A DNA stretch of 64,000 nucleotides, from NCBI GenBank assembly GCA_938008165.1, contig CALLLP010000030.1:1-64000 (forward strand). Direction: 5' to 3'. This document shows, piece after piece, positions 20,698 through 32,363 of the stretch (positions are counted from its first letter, which is position 1; every line of letters begins with the position of its first letter). Source of the DNA: an uncultured Neomegalonema sp. Lineage in GTDB: Bacteria; Pseudomonadota; Alphaproteobacteria; Rhodobacterales; Rhodobacteraceae. Under the pieces are notes generated by a model, which saw only the letters and a list, made by a program, of their open reading frames with translations, made no database searches and was not told the DNA's origin. The position numbers were made by a program, and so were the translations under genes.

Positions 20698-20874
20698 GGA
20701 GCCATCCCTGCAACTATTCTTGCATCAGGCTTACGCCGTCTTCGCCAAAGGATAAAGACCCGCTCTTGACGGGTATCGGATGCGCTCGGCATCATTTTTC
20801 CGAAGGCGGGTCTATTCCCGTGTCGCGGGGCGCTGTAGCGTGCCGACGAACAAGCTGAATTGAGGAAGTCGCCG

Positions 20875-22092
20875 ATGACCGCCACTGATCTGCGTGAAAC
20901 ACGCTCCGCCGAGGACCGCGATGCCGCCCTGATGCAGGCGGTGCGCGAAATCGTATCCGGCGCGCAGAAGGGGTCGGTCCATTACGGCATGACTCTCGCA
21001 CAGATCGATCCGCAGGCGGTACAGTCGCGGGGCGATCTTGCGGCTTTGCCGGTCCTGCGCAAATCCGACCTCATGGCCCTGCAAGAGCAGGAGCCGCCCT
21101 TTGGCGGGATCGCCAGCGAATCTGTGGCGGCGATGACGCGTGTTTTCCTGTCGCCGGGGCCGATTGCGGAGCCGCAGACCGGCGAGGATGCGGATGGATG
21201 GCGCTTTTCCCGTGCCCTGAATGCGGCGGGGATCGGGCGGGGCGATATCGTGCATAACTGCTTTTCGTATCACCTGACCCCGGCGGGGTTCATGATGGAT
21301 TCGGCGATCCGGGCGGTTGGCGGAACGGTCTTTCCCGGCGGGGTCGGCCATACCGCCACGCAGGCGGAGGCCATGCGCCGCTTTGGCATTACCGCCTATG
21401 TTGGTACGCCCGATTTCCTGCGCACGATCCTTGAGGCCGCCGATGAAGAGAAACTGCCGATCCGCACGGTCGAGAAAGCGCTGGTCTCCGGCGGTCCGCT
21501 GTTTCCCGCCCTGCGCGACTGGTACAAGGCGCGGGGCATCCGGGTGCAGCAGGCATATGGCACCGCCGATCTGGGGCTGATCGCCTATGAAACCGAGGCG
21601 ATGGAGGGGTTGATCGTCGATGAGGATGTCGTGGTCGAGATCGTGCGTCCCGGCACCGGCGATCCGGTGCCCGAGGGCGAGGTCGGCGAGGTGGTCGTCA
21701 CGACGTTCGATCCGGCCTATCCGATGATCCGTTTCGCGACCGGCGATCTGTCGAAGGTGATGCCGGGGCCATGCCCCACGGGCCGAACCAATATGCGCCT
21801 TGCGGGATGGATGGGCCGCGCCGATCAGACAACGAAGGTCAAGGGCATGTTCGTGCATCCCGAACAGGTAGCACGGGTCGCCAAGGCCCATGGCCTCGCG
21901 CGGGTCCGCCTTGAAGTGACCGAGACGGAGGGCCGCGACCGGATGACCCTGATCTGCGAAGGCGAGGGCGATGCCGAGGCGGTTGTCGAGGCGATGTACC
22001 GCGAATGCCGGTTAAAGGGCGATGTGCGCTTCATCGGGTCCGAGACCCTGCCCAATGACGGCAAGGTCATCGATGACCGGCGGGCGCTCTGA
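20875..22092 (+). CDS. Phenylacetate-CoA ligase-like adenylate-forming protein with altered P-loop
   Basis: A 405-residue protein of the PaaK/AMP-binding superfamily. Recognisable parts are QAYGTADLGLIAYE, FATGDLS and a C-terminal lysine in LPNDGKVIDD. In the position of the nucleotide-binding SSGTTGKPT loop it reads LSPGPIAEPQTG, so the usual TTG and Lys are missing. ATG 20875 is preferred, with GAGGAAG six bases upstream; an in-frame TTG lies at 20860. It may still adenylate an aryl or acyl acid, or it may have lost that activity. It is divergent from the sugar-acid dehydratase and 21 bases before the DjlA-like gene. Confidence 0.83.
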   Translation: MTATDLRETRSAEDRDAALMQAVREIVSGAQKGSVHYGMTLAQIDPQAVQSRGDLAALPVLRKSDLMALQEQEPPFGGIASESVAAMTRVFLSPGPIAEPQTGEDADGWRFSRALNAAGIGRGDIVHNCFSYHLTPAGFMMDSAIRAVGGTVFPGGVGHTATQAEAMRRFGITAYVGTPDFLRTILEAADEEKLPIRTVEKALVSGGPLFPALRDWYKARGIRVQQAYGTADLGLIAYETEAMEGLIVDEDVVVEIVRPGTGDPVPEGEVGEVVVTTFDPAYPMIRFATGDLSKVMPGPCPTGRTNMRLAGWMGRADQTTKVKGMFVHPEQVARVAKAHGLARVRLEVTETEGRDRMTLICEGEGDAEAVVEAMYRECRLKGDVRFIGSETLPNDGKVIDDRRAL

Positions 22093-25390: not shown

Positions 25391-26311
25391 ATGACCGATA
25401 CGCACCGTTCAACCCATGATGCCGCCGAAGATGACCGGAACGAGCATATCCACATCTATGTCGATGGCGAAATCGTCCCGCGCGCGCAGGCGACGGTGTC
25501 GGTATATGACAGCGGATTCATGCTGGGCGATGGCGTGTGGGAGGGGTTGCGGGTCCATGACGGGCATCTCGCTTTCCTCGACGAGCATCTCGACCGGCTC
25601 TACGAAGCGGCGCTCTATATCGGTCTCGATATCGGCAAAACGCGGGCGGAACTGACTCAGGCGATCCGGGACACGCTCGATGCCAATGGCATGACGACCG
25701 ATGCCCATATCCGCATGATGATCACGCGGGGGCGCAAGAAAAAACCGTTCCAGCACCCGCATCTGAGCATTTACGGCCCTACCATCGTCATCATCGCCGA
25801 GCATTCGACGCCCGATGAGAGCATCGTGGAGCGGGGCATTCGCCTGCACACTACGCCCCATCATCGCGGCCTGCCCCTGACCCAAGATTCAAAGCTCAAT
25901 TCGCATTCAAAGCTCAATTGCATCATCGCCCTGAACCATGCCTTGCAGGCCGGGGCGGATGAAGCGCTGATGCTCGATCCGTTCGGCTTTGTGAATACGA
26001 CGAATGCCTGCAACTTCTTCATCGTCAAGAAAGGGGCCGTCTGGACCTCGACCGGCGATTACTGCATGAATGGGATCACACGGCAGAAGGTGATCGATCT
26101 GTGCCGCGAGAATGCCATTCCCGTCTTCGAGCGCAGCTATTCGCTTGTCGATACCTATAGCGCGGATGAAGCGTTCCTGACGGGCACATTCGGCGCGCAA
26201 ACCCCTGTCTTCGAGATCGATGGACGGCCCATCGGCGGGGGGCGACCGGGGCCGGTCTTCACGCGCATTCGGGCGCTTTACAAGGAATTGCTGCTGCGCG
26301 ACGCGGGGTGA
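25391..26311 (+). CDS. Class IV PLP-dependent aminotransferase
   Basis: A 306-residue fold-type IV aminotransferase of the D-amino-acid/branched-chain/aminodeoxychorismate-lyase group. FMLGDGVWEGLRVHDG (43-58) is the N-terminal signature. The PLP lysine is Lys168 or Lys174 in SKLNSHSKLNC, and GADEALMLDPFGFV and TGTFGAQTPV follow. Which amino acid it uses cannot be read from these motifs. A 220-base gap with no gene precedes it, and it converges on the APH-like kinase gene. Confidence 0.9.
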   Translation: MTDTHRSTHDAAEDDRNEHIHIYVDGEIVPRAQATVSVYDSGFMLGDGVWEGLRVHDGHLAFLDEHLDRLYEAALYIGLDIGKTRAELTQAIRDTLDANGMTTDAHIRMMITRGRKKKPFQHPHLSIYGPTIVIIAEHSTPDESIVERGIRLHTTPHHRGLPLTQDSKLNSHSKLNCIIALNHALQAGADEALMLDPFGFVNTTNACNFFIVKKGAVWTSTGDYCMNGITRQKVIDLCRENAIPVFERSYSLVDTYSADEAFLTGTFGAQTPVFEIDGRPIGGGRPGPVFTRIRALYKELLLRDAG

Positions 26312-26347: not shown

Positions 26348-27364
26348 TTATCCGAAACCACCGCGCGTAACATCCATACCCCGCCGGGCAAAGCGCGCAG
26401 CGAGCGGACCGAGGGAGGCGGCCTCTGCCGATGCCGCGCTTCCGGCCCGTGCGCGGTCTGCGATGCCGACAAAGATCACGGCAAAGCGGAACAGGGCAAA
26501 GGCGACGTGAAACCGCTGCAAGGGGGGCGTTTCCGGGGCATATCGTCGATACTGCGCGACAAAAGCGTCCTGAGAGGGGATGCCGAGCGCTGCGCGATCC
26601 AGCCCGAGGATGCCCGCATATTCATCCGGTGCCGTATGCCAAGGCAGGCAGCAAAACCCCAGATCCGCCAGCGGATGGCCCAGTGTCGATAATTCCCAGT
26701 CGAGCACCGCCACGACACGGGGCTGCGCCGGGTGGATCAACAGGTTCCCCAGCCTGAAATCCCCATGGGCTATGGCGCTGTGCCCGTCATCGGGCGGTTT
26801 ATGTGCGGTCAGCCATGCGATCAGGTCGTCCAGTGCCGGGATCGGCCCGCTTGGCGATGCCTGCCATTGACCGGACCACCGGGCGATCTGGCGTTCGAAA
26901 TAATTACCGGGCCGCCCGTAATCGCCCAGCCCGACCGTATCGGGGCGCAGCGCGTGCAGCCGTGCCAGCGTTTCGGCCATCGATAGATAGAGTGCCTCGC
27001 GTTCGGCGGGGGCGAGGCCGGGCAGGGCGCACTCATGGAAGACGCGCCCCTCGACCCGCTCCATCAGGTAGAATGGCGCGCCCAGCAGAGCCGGATCTTC
27101 ATGAAAGAGGATCGGGCGCGGCACCGGCACATCCGTTCCCTGAAGCGCTTTGAGGATGCGAAATTCCCGGTCGACCGCATGGGCACCGCGCAGGGTCTCG
27201 CCATTGGGTTTCTTGCGCAGAACCATCCGCTGCCCTGCATGGGTCAGGAAGTATGTCGGGTTCGACTGCCCGCCCCCGATCCGCTCCAGCGCCATCGCGC
27301 CCGCGCCGAATGTCGCGTCCAGAAATCCGTGCAGCGTAGGGATGTCAAAATCTGCGTCAGTCAT
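26348..27364 (-). CDS. APH-family kinase, ACAD11 N-domain/LvaA-like
   Basis: A 338-residue aminoglycoside-phosphotransferase-fold kinase. It shows the glycine-rich GGGQSNPTYFL, the lysine of MVLRKKPNG, the catalytic loop IAHGDFRLGNLLIHP and the metal Asp in VLDWELSTLGHPLADLG. The last motif is typical of the kinase half of human ACAD10/11 and of bacterial LvaA, which phosphorylate the hydroxyl of 4-hydroxyacyl-CoA. The start overlaps the stop of an ACAD11-like dehydrogenase gene by eight bases, which supports the same two-step chemistry. It is the last gene of a four-gene operon. Confidence 0.88.
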   Translation of the reverse strand: MTDADFDIPTLHGFLDATFGAGAMALERIGGGQSNPTYFLTHAGQRMVLRKKPNGETLRGAHAVDREFRILKALQGTDVPVPRPILFHEDPALLGAPFYLMERVEGRVFHECALPGLAPAEREALYLSMAETLARLHALRPDTVGLGDYGRPGNYFERQIARWSGQWQASPSGPIPALDDLIAWLTAHKPPDDGHSAIAHGDFRLGNLLIHPAQPRVVAVLDWELSTLGHPLADLGFCCLPWHTAPDEYAGILGLDRAALGIPSQDAFVAQYRRYAPETPPLQRFHVAFALFRFAVIFVGIADRARAGSAASAEAASLGPLAARFARRGMDVTRGGFG

Positions 27365-28562
27365 CGACCGGCCACCGGAAAAAGCCATCCTGCGCCGCCG
27401 CCAATTCGCGGTTCAGGACCATCCGATGCACCTCGTCCGCGCCATCCACCAGCCGCGCCTGACGCGCATAGCGGTAGATCCATTCGAGGACGGTATCCTT
27501 CGAATAGCCCCGCGCGCCGTTGATCTGGATTGCGGTATCGGCGGCCCGGTGCAGCAGGTTCGCGACATGGATTTTCGCCATCGAGACTTCCTTGCGGGCA
27601 AAGCCGCCCCGGTCGATTTCCCACGCCGCTTTCATGGTCAGAAGGCGTCCGGTCTCGATATCCATCGCAAGGCCGCCCAGCATCATCTGGATGCTTTCGC
27701 GGTCGATCAGCCGGATGCCGAAGCCCTCGCGCTCCGCCGCATAGGCCCGCGCGATCTCGACACAGCGGCGCGCCAGCCCCAGCCAGCGCATGCAATGGGT
27801 CAGGCGCGCGGGGCCAAGGCGCGTCTGGGTCAGCTTCAGGCCGCGCCCCTCGCCGATCAGTACGTTCTCGGCGGGGATTTCGAGGCCGTCGAAAGCCAGC
27901 TCACAATGCCCGCCATGTTCCTCTGGCCCCATGATCCCAATGCGTCGCAGGATGTGCCAGCCGGGTTGGCCGGCATAGAATAAAAAGGCGGTCAGACCCG
28001 TGCGGGGATCGTCCGATGTGCGGGCGACAAGGATGAAATGCTGCGCCTCCTCCGCGCCGGTGATGTACCATTTGCGGCCATGGACGACATAGCGGTCGCC
28101 GCGTTTTTCGGCAGTGGTGCGAATCATCGACGGGTCGGAGCCGCCCCCCGGATGCGGCTCGGTCATGGCGAAGGAGGATCGCACCGCGCCATCGATAATC
28201 GGCTGCATCCAGCGGTCTTGCTGTTCGGGCGTGCCGATCTTTGCCAGCACCGAGATATTTCCGTCATCGGGGGCCGCGCAATTGATGCAGACCGGCCCGA
28301 AGATCGAACGGTTCGCCTCCTCGTAGAGAACCGCGCGCTCGACCATTGACAGGCCCATCCCGCCACGCTCCACGGGGGCTTGCGGTGCCCAGATGCCGAT
28401 GTCCTTTGCCCGTTTGCGCATCCGGGCCAGCGGTTCGGGAGCGATATTCTCATGGGCATCGAAATGCGTGCGGTCGTCTTCGAGGGGCAGCAATTCCTCA
28501 TCGACGAATGTTGCAAGCCGCAGGCGCAGCGCCTCGACTTCGGGCGTGATCCGAAAATCCAT
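27357..28562 (-). CDS. Acyl-CoA dehydrogenase of the ACAD10/11 type
   Basis: A 401-residue acyl-CoA dehydrogenase. SFAMTEPHPGGGSDPSMI and HGRKWYITGAE are the flavin and substrate regions. The C-terminal catalytic site reads VDGADEVHRMVLNRE, with Asp where classical enzymes have Glu, matching the DGPDEVH type of ACAD10/11. Those enzymes eliminate phosphate from a 4-phosphoacyl-CoA to give an enoyl-CoA. ATG 28562 is selected by GAAGGAA six bases upstream. It is 11 bases after the DUF1989 gene and overlaps the kinase gene. Confidence 0.9.
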   Translation of the reverse strand: MDFRITPEVEALRLRLATFVDEELLPLEDDRTHFDAHENIAPEPLARMRKRAKDIGIWAPQAPVERGGMGLSMVERAVLYEEANRSIFGPVCINCAAPDDGNISVLAKIGTPEQQDRWMQPIIDGAVRSSFAMTEPHPGGGSDPSMIRTTAEKRGDRYVVHGRKWYITGAEEAQHFILVARTSDDPRTGLTAFLFYAGQPGWHILRRIGIMGPEEHGGHCELAFDGLEIPAENVLIGEGRGLKLTQTRLGPARLTHCMRWLGLARRCVEIARAYAAEREGFGIRLIDRESIQMMLGGLAMDIETGRLLTMKAAWEIDRGGFARKEVSMAKIHVANLLHRAADTAIQINGARGYSKDTVLEWIYRYARQARLVDGADEVHRMVLNRELAAAQDGFFRWPVDD

Positions 28563-28573
28563 GTCGCGTTCCT

Positions 28574-29269
28574 TCACTCTCCGACCTTCTCGACCCAGAA
28601 GATCAAAGGGGCCGGTTGCGTATCGATGCCGTTCACCGGCGTCATATCCTGCGGACAGGCGGACATGATGCAGATACATGCCGCTTTCGCCTCCAGCGCG
28701 ATGTGGTCGCCCGGTCGAGAGACGGGCGGCGTCCAAGCATAGCGACCATCTTCGGCCACCGGGATATTCATCCAGATATTGAAGGGGGAGGGCACGTGGA
28801 TCGGCGCGATGCCGATGGCCTCAAGGGCCATGCGGAAATTATCGGCGCAATTGTCGTGGTATCCCTTGGCCCCCAGCGTTTCGTAGCGGGGCTGATCGCA
28901 GCAGGCGATGAGGATATCATGCACGCCGGGAGACGTATCCTCGACGATCTCGATCAGGGGGCGGCGGCGATTTGTGACCAGCGTATCGCCCTGCCGGACA
29001 TAGACCTTGCCCAATGCCGTGCGCGTGTGCTCCATCGACAGCATTTCACCCGGTGCGCCATGGACGAGGGCAAAGAAATCGCAAACCTGATGCCCTTGCT
29101 CGTTCAGAATGAACAGTCGGTCGCCGGGGTTCAGATGCACCGCGCGCCCCTCCCGTGCGGGGATGGTGTGGCGCTCTCCGGGGGTTACGCGTCCATTCGC
29201 AGAGACCGGATTGTCCTTGGTGCCATTTGTGCCGTCACAGGCGCGGGGGTCGTAATGCGGCGTGGTCAT
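28574..29269 (-). CDS. DUF1989 (urea carboxylase-associated) family protein
   Basis: A 231-residue protein of the DUF1989/urea-carboxylase-associated family. Conserved stretches include GDRLFILNEQGHQVCDFFAL, TNRRRPLIEIVEDTSPGVHD, SPFNIWMNIPV and SACPQDMTPVNG. Relatives accompany urea carboxylase in a guanidine/urea context, but no urea carboxylase or allophanate hydrolase is present here. It begins one base after the stop of the deaminase gene and precedes the ACAD11-like gene by 11 bases, so all belong to one transcript. Confidence 0.88.
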   Translation of the reverse strand: MTTPHYDPRACDGTNGTKDNPVSANGRVTPGERHTIPAREGRAVHLNPGDRLFILNEQGHQVCDFFALVHGAPGEMLSMEHTRTALGKVYVRQGDTLVTNRRRPLIEIVEDTSPGVHDILIACCDQPRYETLGAKGYHDNCADNFRMALEAIGIAPIHVPSPFNIWMNIPVAEDGRYAWTPPVSRPGDHIALEAKAACICIMSACPQDMTPVNGIDTQPAPLIFWVEKVGE

Positions 29270-29270
29270 C

Positions 29271-29723
29271 TCAATCCTCCGCGATATCCTCGGCCCAGAG
29301 TTCGGGGCGTTCCTCGATAAAGCGCTGCATCAGGGCGATGCATTCCGGGTCGTCGGCGACGATCACCTCGACGCCCCGCTCGCGCAGGAAATCCTCGTTC
29401 CCGCCGAAGGTCGTGTTCTCGGCGATGACGACGCGGGGGATGCCGAATTGGACGATGGTGCCTGAGCACATCATGCAGGGGCTAAGCGAGGTATAGAGCG
29501 TGGTGTCGCGATAGGTCTTTTGCCGTCCGGCCTTGCGCAATGCATCCATTTCGCCATGGGCGATGGGGTCGCCTTGCTGTACGCGCTGATTGCGCCCCTG
29601 AGCCACGAGCGTTTCGCCCCGCGCGATGACCGAGCCGATGGGACACCCTCCTTCATCAAAGCCCGCTTTGGCCTCGTCATAGGCGATTCGCAGGAAATGG
29701 CGGTCGGTGTCGGTCAGGGGCAT
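29271..29723 (-). CDS. Nucleoside/cytosine deaminase family protein
   Basis: A 150-residue zinc deaminase of the CMP/dCMP-deaminase superfamily. The ligands are His56 with proton-shuttle Glu58 in AHGEMDAL, and Cys83 and Cys86 in SPCMMCSGTI. The FGGNEDFLRERGVEV tail is like yeast-type cytosine deaminase, so cytosine, guanine or a related nitrogen heterocycle is the likely substrate. It is the first gene of the four-gene minus-strand operon. The long gap upstream must hold its promoter. Confidence 0.88.
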   Translation of the reverse strand: MPLTDTDRHFLRIAYDEAKAGFDEGGCPIGSVIARGETLVAQGRNQRVQQGDPIAHGEMDALRKAGRQKTYRDTTLYTSLSPCMMCSGTIVQFGIPRVVIAENTTFGGNEDFLRERGVEVIVADDPECIALMQRFIEERPELWAEDIAED

Positions 29724-30176: not shown

Positions 30177-32363
30177 GTGTTGAATACCTTCACGATCGTC
30201 GAAACATCAAGCGTCGCATCCAGCGGCGTATCCGCGTCCACGCTTGCCAATGTACGGTCGGGCATCCTCGCCGCTGGGGGCATCATCAATGACAATTTTC
30301 AACAATCCGGCGTCGATATTGAAATATCGCTGAGCATTGCGGACCTCGGCGGCAATACCCTTGCGACCGGCGGAACCAGCTTTCACGGGACCACCGCAGA
30401 CGGCCCCGGTCAGGAAATCTGGACCCTCAATTCCTTGAACGAGATCATCACGGGGCAGGAATACGATCCCGGTGGATCGACCACCGACATCGCGTTTACC
30501 GTCGATATCGACGCCCTGACGAATAATACATTCTTTTTCGATCCCGATCCGCAGGCCCGGACGGCCTCGGTGCCCGGCAACCAGATCGATTTTCTGACTC
30601 TTGCGATTCATGAGTTATTGCATGGATTTGGCTTTCTCGCCCTCACAACCGGCGAGCCGAGTGACCGCGAAGTACCCGGCCCGGACATTTCGCCCTTCGA
30701 TGACAATGTCGATCTGATTGGCGGCAATCGGTTCTTCACCGGCGCGAATGCCGTGGCGGCCAATGGCGGAAATCCGATCCGGCTGCTGGACGGCGCTTCG
30801 GCCCATCCGCTTGACGGCGTCAACGGCATCGACAGCATCATGAACGCGACCATCACCACGGGCACGCGCAAGTTTCTGTCCCCGATCGAGCTTGCGATCC
30901 TTGAGGATATGGGCGCTCCGATCGTGACCCCGCCCGCATCCGCCGATTTCAATCTGGCGCTGGGCACCGTGGAAACGGGGCGGTATGGCAACCGCTATAC
31001 GGGCGCCACGGGTGCCTCCGACACGGACGCCGTCGTGCAGGCGACCTTTACGGGGACGGCGTCGTCGCTCAAGCTGTCCTTCGACGGGTTTGACATCGAT
31101 TTCGATAATGAGCTGGAGGTTTTCCTCAACGGCAACAGTCTCGGTTTCATCGATGCGGGCGTGAACGAGGGAACGGCCTCCTATGCCATCGATATTGCCG
31201 CCTCCGCGCAGATTGCGGGCGAGAACGAGCTGGAATTCCGTCAGGAGATCAACCCGGCGTTCAAATGGGGCGTGACCAATGTGCTGCTTTCCTCGTCCTT
31301 CGATTTTGATCTCGCGGCTGGCACGGCGGAAACCGGCAAGTTCGGGAATAAGTTTGACGGGGCGACCGATACCGATGGCATTGTCTCGGCATCTTTCACG
31401 GGCACCGGGTCGTCCCTGACGCTGTCCTTCGACGGGTTTGACATCGATTTCGATAATGAGCTGGAGGTTTTCCTCAACGGCAACAGTCTGGGTTTCATCG
31501 ATGCGGGCGTGAACGAGGGTACAGCGTCCTATGAATTGGCCATCGCCGCCTCCGCGCAGAATACGGGCGAGAATGAGCTGGAATTCCGTCAGGCGATCAA
31601 CCCGGCGTTCAAATGGGGCGTGACCAATGTGCTGCTTTCCTCGTCCTTCGATGTCGATCTGACGGTCGGCACGGCGGAGACCGGGCGCTATGGCAACAAA
31701 TATGCGGGGGCCTCAGGTGCGTCGGATACGGATGGGGTTGTCTCGGCATCCTTCACCGGCGCGGGGACCGATCTTGTGCTGTCCTTTGACGGGTTTGACA
31801 TCGATTTCGATAATGAGCTGGAGGTTTTCCTCAACGGCGACAGTCTCGGCTTTATCGATTCGGGCGTCAACGAGGGCACAGCGTCCTATGAATTGGCCAT
31901 CGCCGCCTCCGCGCAGAATACGGGCGAGAATGAGCTGGAATTCCGTCAGGCGATCAACCCGGCGTTCAAATGGGGAGTCACCGATATTCTGCTCTCCACC
32001 GCCTTCGACTTCGATCTGACGGTCGGCACGGCGGAGACCGGGCAATATGGCAATAAATTCGCCGGTACAACCGACACGGATGGCGTCGTCTCAGCGTCCT
32101 TCACGGGTACGGGGTCCGATCTGGGGCTGTTCTTCGACGGGTTCGACATCGATTTCGACAATGAGCTGGAAGTTGTGCTGAACGGCAACAGCCTTGGTTT
32201 TGTCGATGCGGGCGTGAATAACGGCACGACATCTTATGGCACCGTCATCGCGGCAAGTGCCCAAAATGCGGGTTTGAACGAGTTGGAATTCCGCCAGGCG
32301 ATCAACCCGGATTTCGCATGGGGTGTGACCAATGTGCTGCTGGATGATTTGATGGCGATGTAG
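30177..32363 (+). CDS. Putative HELLH zinc protease with four tandem beta-domain repeats
   Basis: A 728-residue protein. GTG 30177 is preceded by AAGGAG at nine bases. Residues 1-255 form a catalytic-looking domain with AIHELLHGFGF (His145, Glu146, His149), then His210 and a possible Met-turn SIMNA at 221-224. The Gly two residues after the second His position fits metzincin spacing, but the usual third His is Ala. Residues 257-375, 376-491, 492-610 and 611-728 are four copies of one domain (GFDIDFDNELEVFLNG ... FKWGVTNVLL), probably a beta-sandwich binding domain. There is no N-terminal signal peptide, so type I or another signal-less export is possible. The family is not known to me. Confidence 0.85.
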   Translation: MLNTFTIVETSSVASSGVSASTLANVRSGILAAGGIINDNFQQSGVDIEISLSIADLGGNTLATGGTSFHGTTADGPGQEIWTLNSLNEIITGQEYDPGGSTTDIAFTVDIDALTNNTFFFDPDPQARTASVPGNQIDFLTLAIHELLHGFGFLALTTGEPSDREVPGPDISPFDDNVDLIGGNRFFTGANAVAANGGNPIRLLDGASAHPLDGVNGIDSIMNATITTGTRKFLSPIELAILEDMGAPIVTPPASADFNLALGTVETGRYGNRYTGATGASDTDAVVQATFTGTASSLKLSFDGFDIDFDNELEVFLNGNSLGFIDAGVNEGTASYAIDIAASAQIAGENELEFRQEINPAFKWGVTNVLLSSSFDFDLAAGTAETGKFGNKFDGATDTDGIVSASFTGTGSSLTLSFDGFDIDFDNELEVFLNGNSLGFIDAGVNEGTASYELAIAASAQNTGENELEFRQAINPAFKWGVTNVLLSSSFDVDLTVGTAETGRYGNKYAGASGASDTDGVVSASFTGAGTDLVLSFDGFDIDFDNELEVFLNGDSLGFIDSGVNEGTASYELAIAASAQNTGENELEFRQAINPAFKWGVTDILLSTAFDFDLTVGTAETGQYGNKFAGTTDTDGVVSASFTGTGSDLGLFFDGFDIDFDNELEVVLNGNSLGFVDAGVNNGTTSYGTVIAASAQNAGLNELEFRQAINPDFAWGVTNVLLDDLMAM
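30945..32360 (+). repeat. Four tandem repeats of about 350 bases inside the protease-like gene
   Basis: Units begin at 30945, 31302, 31650 and 32007 (357, 348, 357 and about 354 bases). The 9-base length differences come from a GAS insertion in units 1 and 3. Around 31083, 31431 and 31788 the DNA is almost identical over about 60 bases. Units 2 and 3 also share a second long near-identical stretch. Unit 4 has drifted most. Confidence 0.92.

Follow-up and report, generated by a model that had tools for sequence, protein, structure and literature searches.

Results

The window analysed here is a stretch of 64,000 nucleotides from contig CALLLP010000030.1 of an uncultured Neomegalonema sp. (assembly GCA_938008165.1, 3.1 Mb, 85% complete), and its minus strand carries two coupled genes that are candidates for a kinase and a lyase acting in turn on 4-hydroxyacyl-coenzyme A (CoA). 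The first gene in order encodes a protein of 401 amino acids with the fold of the acyl-CoA dehydrogenases (ACADs; 27357..28562), the putative 4-phosphoacyl-CoA lyase giving 2-enoyl-CoA. Downstream follows an APH-fold kinase of the ACAD10/11 type (26348..27388), the putative 4-hydroxyacyl-CoA kinase, which has 346 amino acids from the ATG at 27388 or 338 from the in-frame ATG at 27364. The overlap of 8 bases described in a first-pass annotation of this DNA holds for the start at 27364 and becomes 32 bases with the start at 27388; the coordinates, the strand and the segments VDGADEVH and DWELSTLGHPLADLG were as quoted there. All three acyl-CoA dehydrogenase domains of the first protein (N-terminal, middle and C-terminal) were above the Pfam cut-off, and the kinase had an APH domain at 193 bits. 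Among solved structures the best sequence match of the dehydrogenase was ACAD11 (7e-67) and those of the kinase were 3dxp (7e-96) and ACAD11 (6e-69), matches that are not due to chance.

The route in which a 4-hydroxy acid is phosphorylated and the phosphate is then eliminated has been recognised recently, in the levulinate catabolism of Pseudomonas putida and, in 2024-2025, in mammalian ACAD10/11. The lva reference used here was the operon on Pseudomonas aeruginosa plasmid p12939-PER (L081), rather than the KT2440 proteins, and its genes lie in the order kinase, annotated LvaB, ACAD, short-chain dehydrogenase/reductase (SDR) and CoA synthetase.

The catalytic residue of the window dehydrogenase is an Asp (D373 in VDGADEVH, 27444..27446) that aligns with the Asp of ACAD11 and with the Glu of Thermus 1ukw, confirming the exchange pointed out in the first-pass annotation. 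The Asp alone was ruled out as a marker of the family, as another ACAD of the same genome (L034, C8:307633-308775) has Asp at the catalytic position (IWDGTSEIQ) and no HCMR motif. The phosphate-handling motif R248-LGPA-R253-LT-H256-C-M-R259 (27786..27821), matching RLGPGRIHHCMR of ACAD11 column by column, is stronger evidence than the Asp because the study of ACAD10/11 found it essential; that paper reports from mutation that R626, H634 and R637 of this motif in ACAD11 matter (PMC12440821). When 55 sequences were aligned, R248, R253, H256-C-M-R259 and D373 of the window protein fell in the expected columns. R-x4-R-x2-HCMR together with the Asp was present in all 25 aligned members of the window-type clade and in none of the six outgroup rows, where HCMR itself was also absent, and R248, R253, H256-R259 and D373 were invariant in two further alignments (A1, 16 rows; A2, 24 rows).

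Three clades stood out in the dehydrogenase tree, of LvaC type (6 rows, 100/95), ACAD11 type (16 rows, 100/100) and window type (25 rows, 100/100), with no resolved branching order among them. Two extra rows (L016 and L019) lay close to the ACAD11 clade at lower support, and the family as a whole was split from the outgroup (6 rows) at 100/99. The protein thus groups with the ACAD11- and Lva-type proteins and apart from conventional dehydrogenases, in support of the first-pass annotation. Its identity is 43% to the lva-operon protein, 35% to ACAD11 and 31% to 1ukw. The predicted model had a mean predicted local distance difference test score (pLDDT) of 86.6, and its best Foldseek match was human ACAD11. 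By its fold, Asp, HCMR motif and clade, the predicted assignment as a 4-phosphoacyl-CoA lyase of the ACAD10/11-LvaC type is well supported.

In the kinase the APH catalytic residues HGD...N and DWE are present. The catalytic loop HGDFRLGN (26744..26767) and the segment LDWELSTLGHPLADLG (26657..26704), whose DWE we take to be the expected metal-binding site of the APH fold, align closely with HGDFKLDN and LDWELSTFGHPLTDLA of ACAD11, whereas the lva-operon kinase deviates in both (HRDYRTGN and LDWEFTSWGDPCEDLG). H208, G209, D210, R212, G214 and N215 were invariant in the 16 rows of alignment A3. Identity is 45% to 3dxp, 40% to the ACAD11 kinase domain and 27% to the kinase of the lva operon. The kinase tree, built from 43 of 81 rows and with no antibiotic kinases among them, was split at 100/100 into an ACAD11 side (35 rows, the window included) and an LvaA side (8 rows), so that the kinase groups with that of ACAD11 and with 3dxp; the contrast to antibiotic kinases comes from the search scores and not from the tree. 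In the fold search 3dxp came first (E 1.5e-27), a 25-hydroxy steroid kinase (9fsg) and then Rv3168 came next, and antibiotic kinases reached 3e-9 at best, on a model weaker than that of the dehydrogenase (mean pLDDT 81.2, active-site parts below 50). A kinase of the ACAD10/11 type and not of the LvaA type is the well supported prediction from these comparisons.

The two genes also recur together in relatives. From one scan of a genome collection, the best 80 of 573 confirmed loci were kept as the named alphaproteobacterial set and neighbours were sought within 6.5 kb; four of these loci belong to the genus of the window, and seven have less than 4.5 kb downstream. A kinase was found near the dehydrogenase in 62 of the 80 (53 window-type, 9 LvaA-type), an SDR that is at least 45% identical to LvaD-like queries in 58 and an LvaE-like ligase with at least 50% identity in 24, and SDR, both types of kinase and ligase were all absent from nine. 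In 49 loci the SDR lies upstream on the same strand and ends no more than 150 nt away, and no such SDR was found in the 208 kb of flank beyond 6.5 kb. Plasmid cassettes with the order SDR, dehydrogenase, ligase, kinase were seen in Sulfitobacter, Mesorhizobium and Paracoccaceae La 6, and SDR, dehydrogenase, kinase in Pseudosulfitobacter, Ponticoccus and Roseivivax. Exceptions were Chelatococcus without the SDR, Azospirillum thermophilum without a nearby kinase, Methylobacterium aquaticum, where neither was found, and Aminobacter SR38, with a kinase of 42% on the opposite strand. Compared with the plasmid-borne lva operon, the Sulfitobacter cassette has an SDR 54% identical to LvaD and a ligase 47% identical to LvaE. 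Judged by these likenesses the cassettes of the relatives are the lva pathway in parts, with predicted ligase, reductase, kinase and lyase, in agreement with the kinship to that pathway suggested in the first-pass annotation.

Eight Methylobacterium loci (L141-L143, L147, L167, L168, L171 and L172) have the dehydrogenase, a beta-ketothiolase-like gene, an SDR and an LvaA-type kinase in a row, with a ligase near in seven of them, apparently a fuller cassette.

The window genome holds one outlier SDR (contig C10; 49% identical to LvaD) and one outlier ligase (contig C20; 50% identical to LvaE) against the LvaD- and LvaE-like queries. That the former is a random SDR is unlikely, as it stands out in the search (53%, 240 bits; the next at 145 bits) and tracks the pair in the genus. 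Among 12 genomes of the genus, the window's included, a single copy of the LvaD-like SDR was found in all eight that have the dehydrogenase and a window-type kinase and in one (G010) of the four without the pair. Three of the eight (G005, G011 and G012) have it linked to the dehydrogenase and five have it at another place, a pattern that fits one pathway whose reductase gene may have moved. On C10 (L121:9170-15184) two neighbours of the SDR have Pfam ornithine cyclodeaminase and alanine racemase/D-serine dehydratase-like domains, and the genes beside it presumably resemble a beta-hydroxyaspartate cycle cluster. An AMP-binding gene within the window (20860-22092) has PaaK-like proteins as its best named relatives, the LvaE-like ligase of this genome being instead the one on C20.

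The type of kinase beside the dehydrogenase varies, and LvaB varies with it. In 15 of 124 loci, covering all three dehydrogenase types, the nearby kinase was of the LvaA type, and DUF6285, the LvaB family (PF19802), was present in 12 of these; in two of the other three the contig ends inside the kinase (L063) or just after it (L171), and in L207 about 3 kb of further sequence gave no match either. DUF6285 was found in none of 77 loci with other kinase types, a few of which are short with 1.5 kb of flank and two of which (L053 and L054) are weakly assigned, and 32 of the 124 had no kinase in reach. The loci in this count are not independent, L045 and L082 being near-copies. A whole-genome search found DUF6285 in two of 16 genomes (G001 and G037); G001 is the sole congener seen with an LvaA-type kinase beside the dehydrogenase, and its DUF6285 is on another contig. 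The window genome, in its 85% complete assembly, gave no LvaB match. When the kinase type was mapped on a quick tree of 105 dehydrogenases (66 with a window-type and 13 with an LvaA-type kinase), at least three changes were needed within the dehydrogenase clade, and well-supported branches force three. The residue three positions past the catalytic Asp (Asp versus Ser/Thr) was rejected as a marker of kinase type, as nine LvaA-type loci have DGADEVH. On the Azospirillum and Thermus plasmids (L077 and L052) a histidine phosphatase family gene follows DUF6285.

Upstream of the dehydrogenase on the same strand lie a DUF1989 gene (28574..29269, identified by Pfam) and a cytosine-deaminase-like gene (29271..29723), whose closest solved structures are chains named cytosine deaminase, 2o3k and 1uaq among them; 1 base separates the deaminase from DUF1989 and 11 bases separate DUF1989 from the dehydrogenase. 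We judge both to be outside the pathway. Of 14 genomes of the genus, 12 have the deaminase, at 81% or more; DUF1989 follows it in eight of these 12 and the dehydrogenase in three (G000, G002 and G009). Four genomes (G004, G006, G010 and G013) have the deaminase-DUF1989 pair and no dehydrogenase of the clade. Among nine genomes with the dehydrogenase the deaminase is adjacent in three and not adjacent in five (G001, G005, G007, G011 and G012); G003 is undecidable, as its dehydrogenase contig ends at the gene start and its deaminase-DUF1989 contig ends shortly past an insertion element. Neither gene had a match anywhere in the 80 best loci.

In G003 the deaminase and DUF1989 come after an ABC transporter and a polysaccharide-deacetylase-family gene (L126:4600-10631), and in G007 the deaminase comes after a polysaccharide-deacetylase-family gene (L127:3364-4835), surroundings that are likely a module for taking up and degrading a nitrogenous compound. 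A plus-strand open reading frame (30177-32363; 728 amino acids, with internal repeats by eye) separates the window deaminase from a pfkB-family gene, and in G002 and G009 deaminase and pfkB-family gene are adjacent. On the other side of the pair an aminotransferase gene (25391-26311) converges on the kinase.

Discussion

We estimate a probability of roughly 0.8 that the two genes encode a machine that would strip the 4-hydroxy group off an acyl-CoA, kinase first and lyase second, and feed the product into beta-oxidation, as ACAD10/11 do. The reactions are those that we infer from gene order, motifs, phylogeny and the linkage seen in relatives. The kinase would phosphorylate 4-hydroxyacyl-CoA at its 4-hydroxyl with ATP as the donor, and in its partner, of dehydrogenase fold and with bound FAD, D373 would remove the proton beside the thioester while R248, H256 and R259 hold the phosphate, which would be expelled without any net oxidation; the 2-enoyl-CoA formed would then enter beta-oxidation. 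Because an LvaD-like reductase in most of the relatives seen and an LvaE-like ligase in some share the cassette, the compound that usually enters the route is probably a 4-oxo or 4-hydroxy acid. In the window genome the unlinked reductase (C10) and ligase (C20) would, we infer, serve the pair, and for a kinase of the ACAD10/11 type we predict activity without LvaB. Possible substrates are levulinate-like 4-oxo acids, gamma-lactones and oxidised lipid fragments. The kinase and dehydrogenase reading of the first-pass annotation is supported; to it are added the HCMR signature, the LvaD- and LvaE-like partners and the fact that an LvaC-leaning dehydrogenase is joined here with an ACAD11-type kinase and no LvaB.

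Several observations weigh against this reading. No kinase lies within 6.5 kb in 18 of the 80 best loci (in L133, one of the 18, the sequence breaks off 11 nt downstream), and the dehydrogenase may thus also act with an unlinked kinase or alone. HCMR is not invariant across the wider family, with L019, L054 and 4hr3 deviating. The identities of the dehydrogenase to the nearest lva-operon protein used (43%) and to ACAD11 (35%) are low when set against that to 1ukw (31%), so the substrate may differ, and the template modelling scores from Foldseek are nearly equal for ACAD11 (0.86) and conventional ACADs (0.85). In the reference operon the names LvaA, C, D and E follow from gene order and LvaB alone is annotated. 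The window pair has neither an SDR nor a ligase beside it, G010 has the reductase without the clade's dehydrogenase, and the orthology of the C10 reductase with the linked one of congeners (63% identity) is likely rather than proven.

An ordinary acyl-CoA dehydrogenase that happens to lie beside an unrelated APH kinase, for instance a resistance or small-molecule kinase, would account for the general Pfam names and the generic public annotations, and 1ukw, titled medium-chain acyl-CoA dehydrogenase, is the structure that the fold scores scarcely separate from ACAD11. This explanation is very unlikely given the separate clade, the lack of HCMR in the outgroup rows, the kinase near the dehydrogenase in most of the best loci and the distance between 3dxp and the antibiotic kinases in the fold search. 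The same chemistry of phosphorylation and elimination could instead act on another hydroxy substrate, with the hydroxyl at another position or on the side chain of a steroid or terpenoid. Pointing that way are 9fsg, which is the second match of the kinase in the fold search, 9ft5, titled with a 25-phospho product, and the sequence divergence from LvaC and ACAD11. We nevertheless regard such a substrate as unlikely, since 9fsg is far behind 3dxp in the fold search (22% identity and E 5e-13 versus 44% and 1.5e-27), the position of the phosphate-binding motif is conserved with ACAD11 and the cassettes parallel the lva pathway at each step.

The first-pass annotation placed the deaminase and DUF1989 in one operon with the pair, and the two could then supply or process the 4-hydroxy substrate. 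The gaps on the same strand are tight (1, 11 and -8 or -32 bases), the gene order is repeated in G009 and G002, and adjacency in G003 is possible, as the contigs are broken there. A consensus scan, which is weak evidence, gave minus-strand promoter-like matches nowhere but upstream of the deaminase, and no terminator-like match on that strand. All this agrees with joint transcription, but a joint pathway is hardly to be expected when neither gene occurs in the 80 best loci, when the deaminase is kept in most of the genus, including four genomes without the dehydrogenase, and adjoins it in three of nine, and when in G003 it sits with DUF1989 behind the transporter and the deacetylase-family gene. 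Their membership in the pathway was rejected, as they form a pair of their own that in the genus is mostly away from the dehydrogenase, G003 aside. Probably the deaminase-DUF1989 genes and the kinase-dehydrogenase pair are two neighbouring modules that would be co-transcribed in three species, and not one conserved pathway.

Returning to the kinase-lyase reading, the pair is by its identities a hybrid, with the dehydrogenase nearer to LvaC (43%, against 35% for ACAD11) and the kinase nearer to ACAD11 (40%, against 27% for LvaA). We lean towards a wider picture in which the window-type dehydrogenases would form, next to LvaC and ACAD10/11, a third branch of 4-phosphoacyl-CoA lyases, widespread in Alphaproteobacteria, that swaps its kinase between LvaA with LvaB and an LvaB-free form of the ACAD10/11 type. 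The window would represent the second form, and the 4-phosphoacyl-CoA intermediate could be the shared currency that lets the parts be interchanged. In P. putida LvaB binds LvaA and growth on levulinate needs both, and in Pseudomonas citronellolis there is no lvaB near the lvaA homologue, which has a histidine phosphatase family gene nearby, according to PMC6692424. The latter case suggests that LvaB is not universal even among LvaA-type systems. The word LvaB does not occur in PMC12440821, the literature search found no mention of DUF6285, and among the papers listed in the searches we recognised no description of the window-type clade.

The chemistry itself is already known; what would be new is a two-gene, LvaB-free kinase-lyase pair for 4-hydroxyacyl-CoA from a third branch of the LvaC/ACAD10/11 family, one that is widespread. 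If this holds, many bacterial genes labelled merely as phosphotransferase family or acyl-CoA dehydrogenase family protein gain a reaction. As one genus has both forms, the exchange of the kinase partner could serve as a natural experiment on the role of LvaB. Of 289 genomes sampled from the class, 37 had a clade-level match (E 1e-130 or better), the window genome being one of the 37, suggesting that the route may matter for the turnover of lactones, levulinate and oxidised lipids.

Of the known systems, the lva operon also has kinase and ACAD-fold genes that are separate and shares the catalytic Asp and the HCMR motif with the window pair, as well as the reductase and ligase that the relatives of the pair add. 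It differs in its kinase, which is on the opposite side of the kinase tree, in its LvaB, and in the linkage of reductase and ligase, whose relatives in the window genome lie elsewhere. In PMC11342911 LvaC of KT2440 is reported as 62% identical to ACAD10 and 56% to ACAD11; for the ACAD of the plasmid-borne operon the identity to ACAD11 is 34% (51% positives), at odds with the latter value. With mammalian ACAD10/ACAD11 the window pair shares the type of kinase, the Asp and the HCMR motif, the difference being one fused chain there and two genes here, and the window dehydrogenase belongs to another clade than the corresponding domain of ACAD11. Separate genes are not remarkable as such, contrary to the first-pass annotation: LvaA and LvaC are separate, and PMC11342911 describes a Burkholderia pseudomallei ACAD10-like pair of separate kinase and dehydrogenase that replaces the parts of ACAD10 in vitro and is nearer to ACAD10 than the proteins of P. 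putida are, a pair likened to that of the window by description. The closest solved kinase, 3dxp (Ralstonia eutropha Reut_A1007), falls in a set of nine rows with the ACAD11 kinase (100/99), outside the window's own subgroup. By its title 9fsg is likewise an APH-fold kinase of a metabolic hydroxyl, but it acts on a steroid and is much less similar to the window kinase than 3dxp is.

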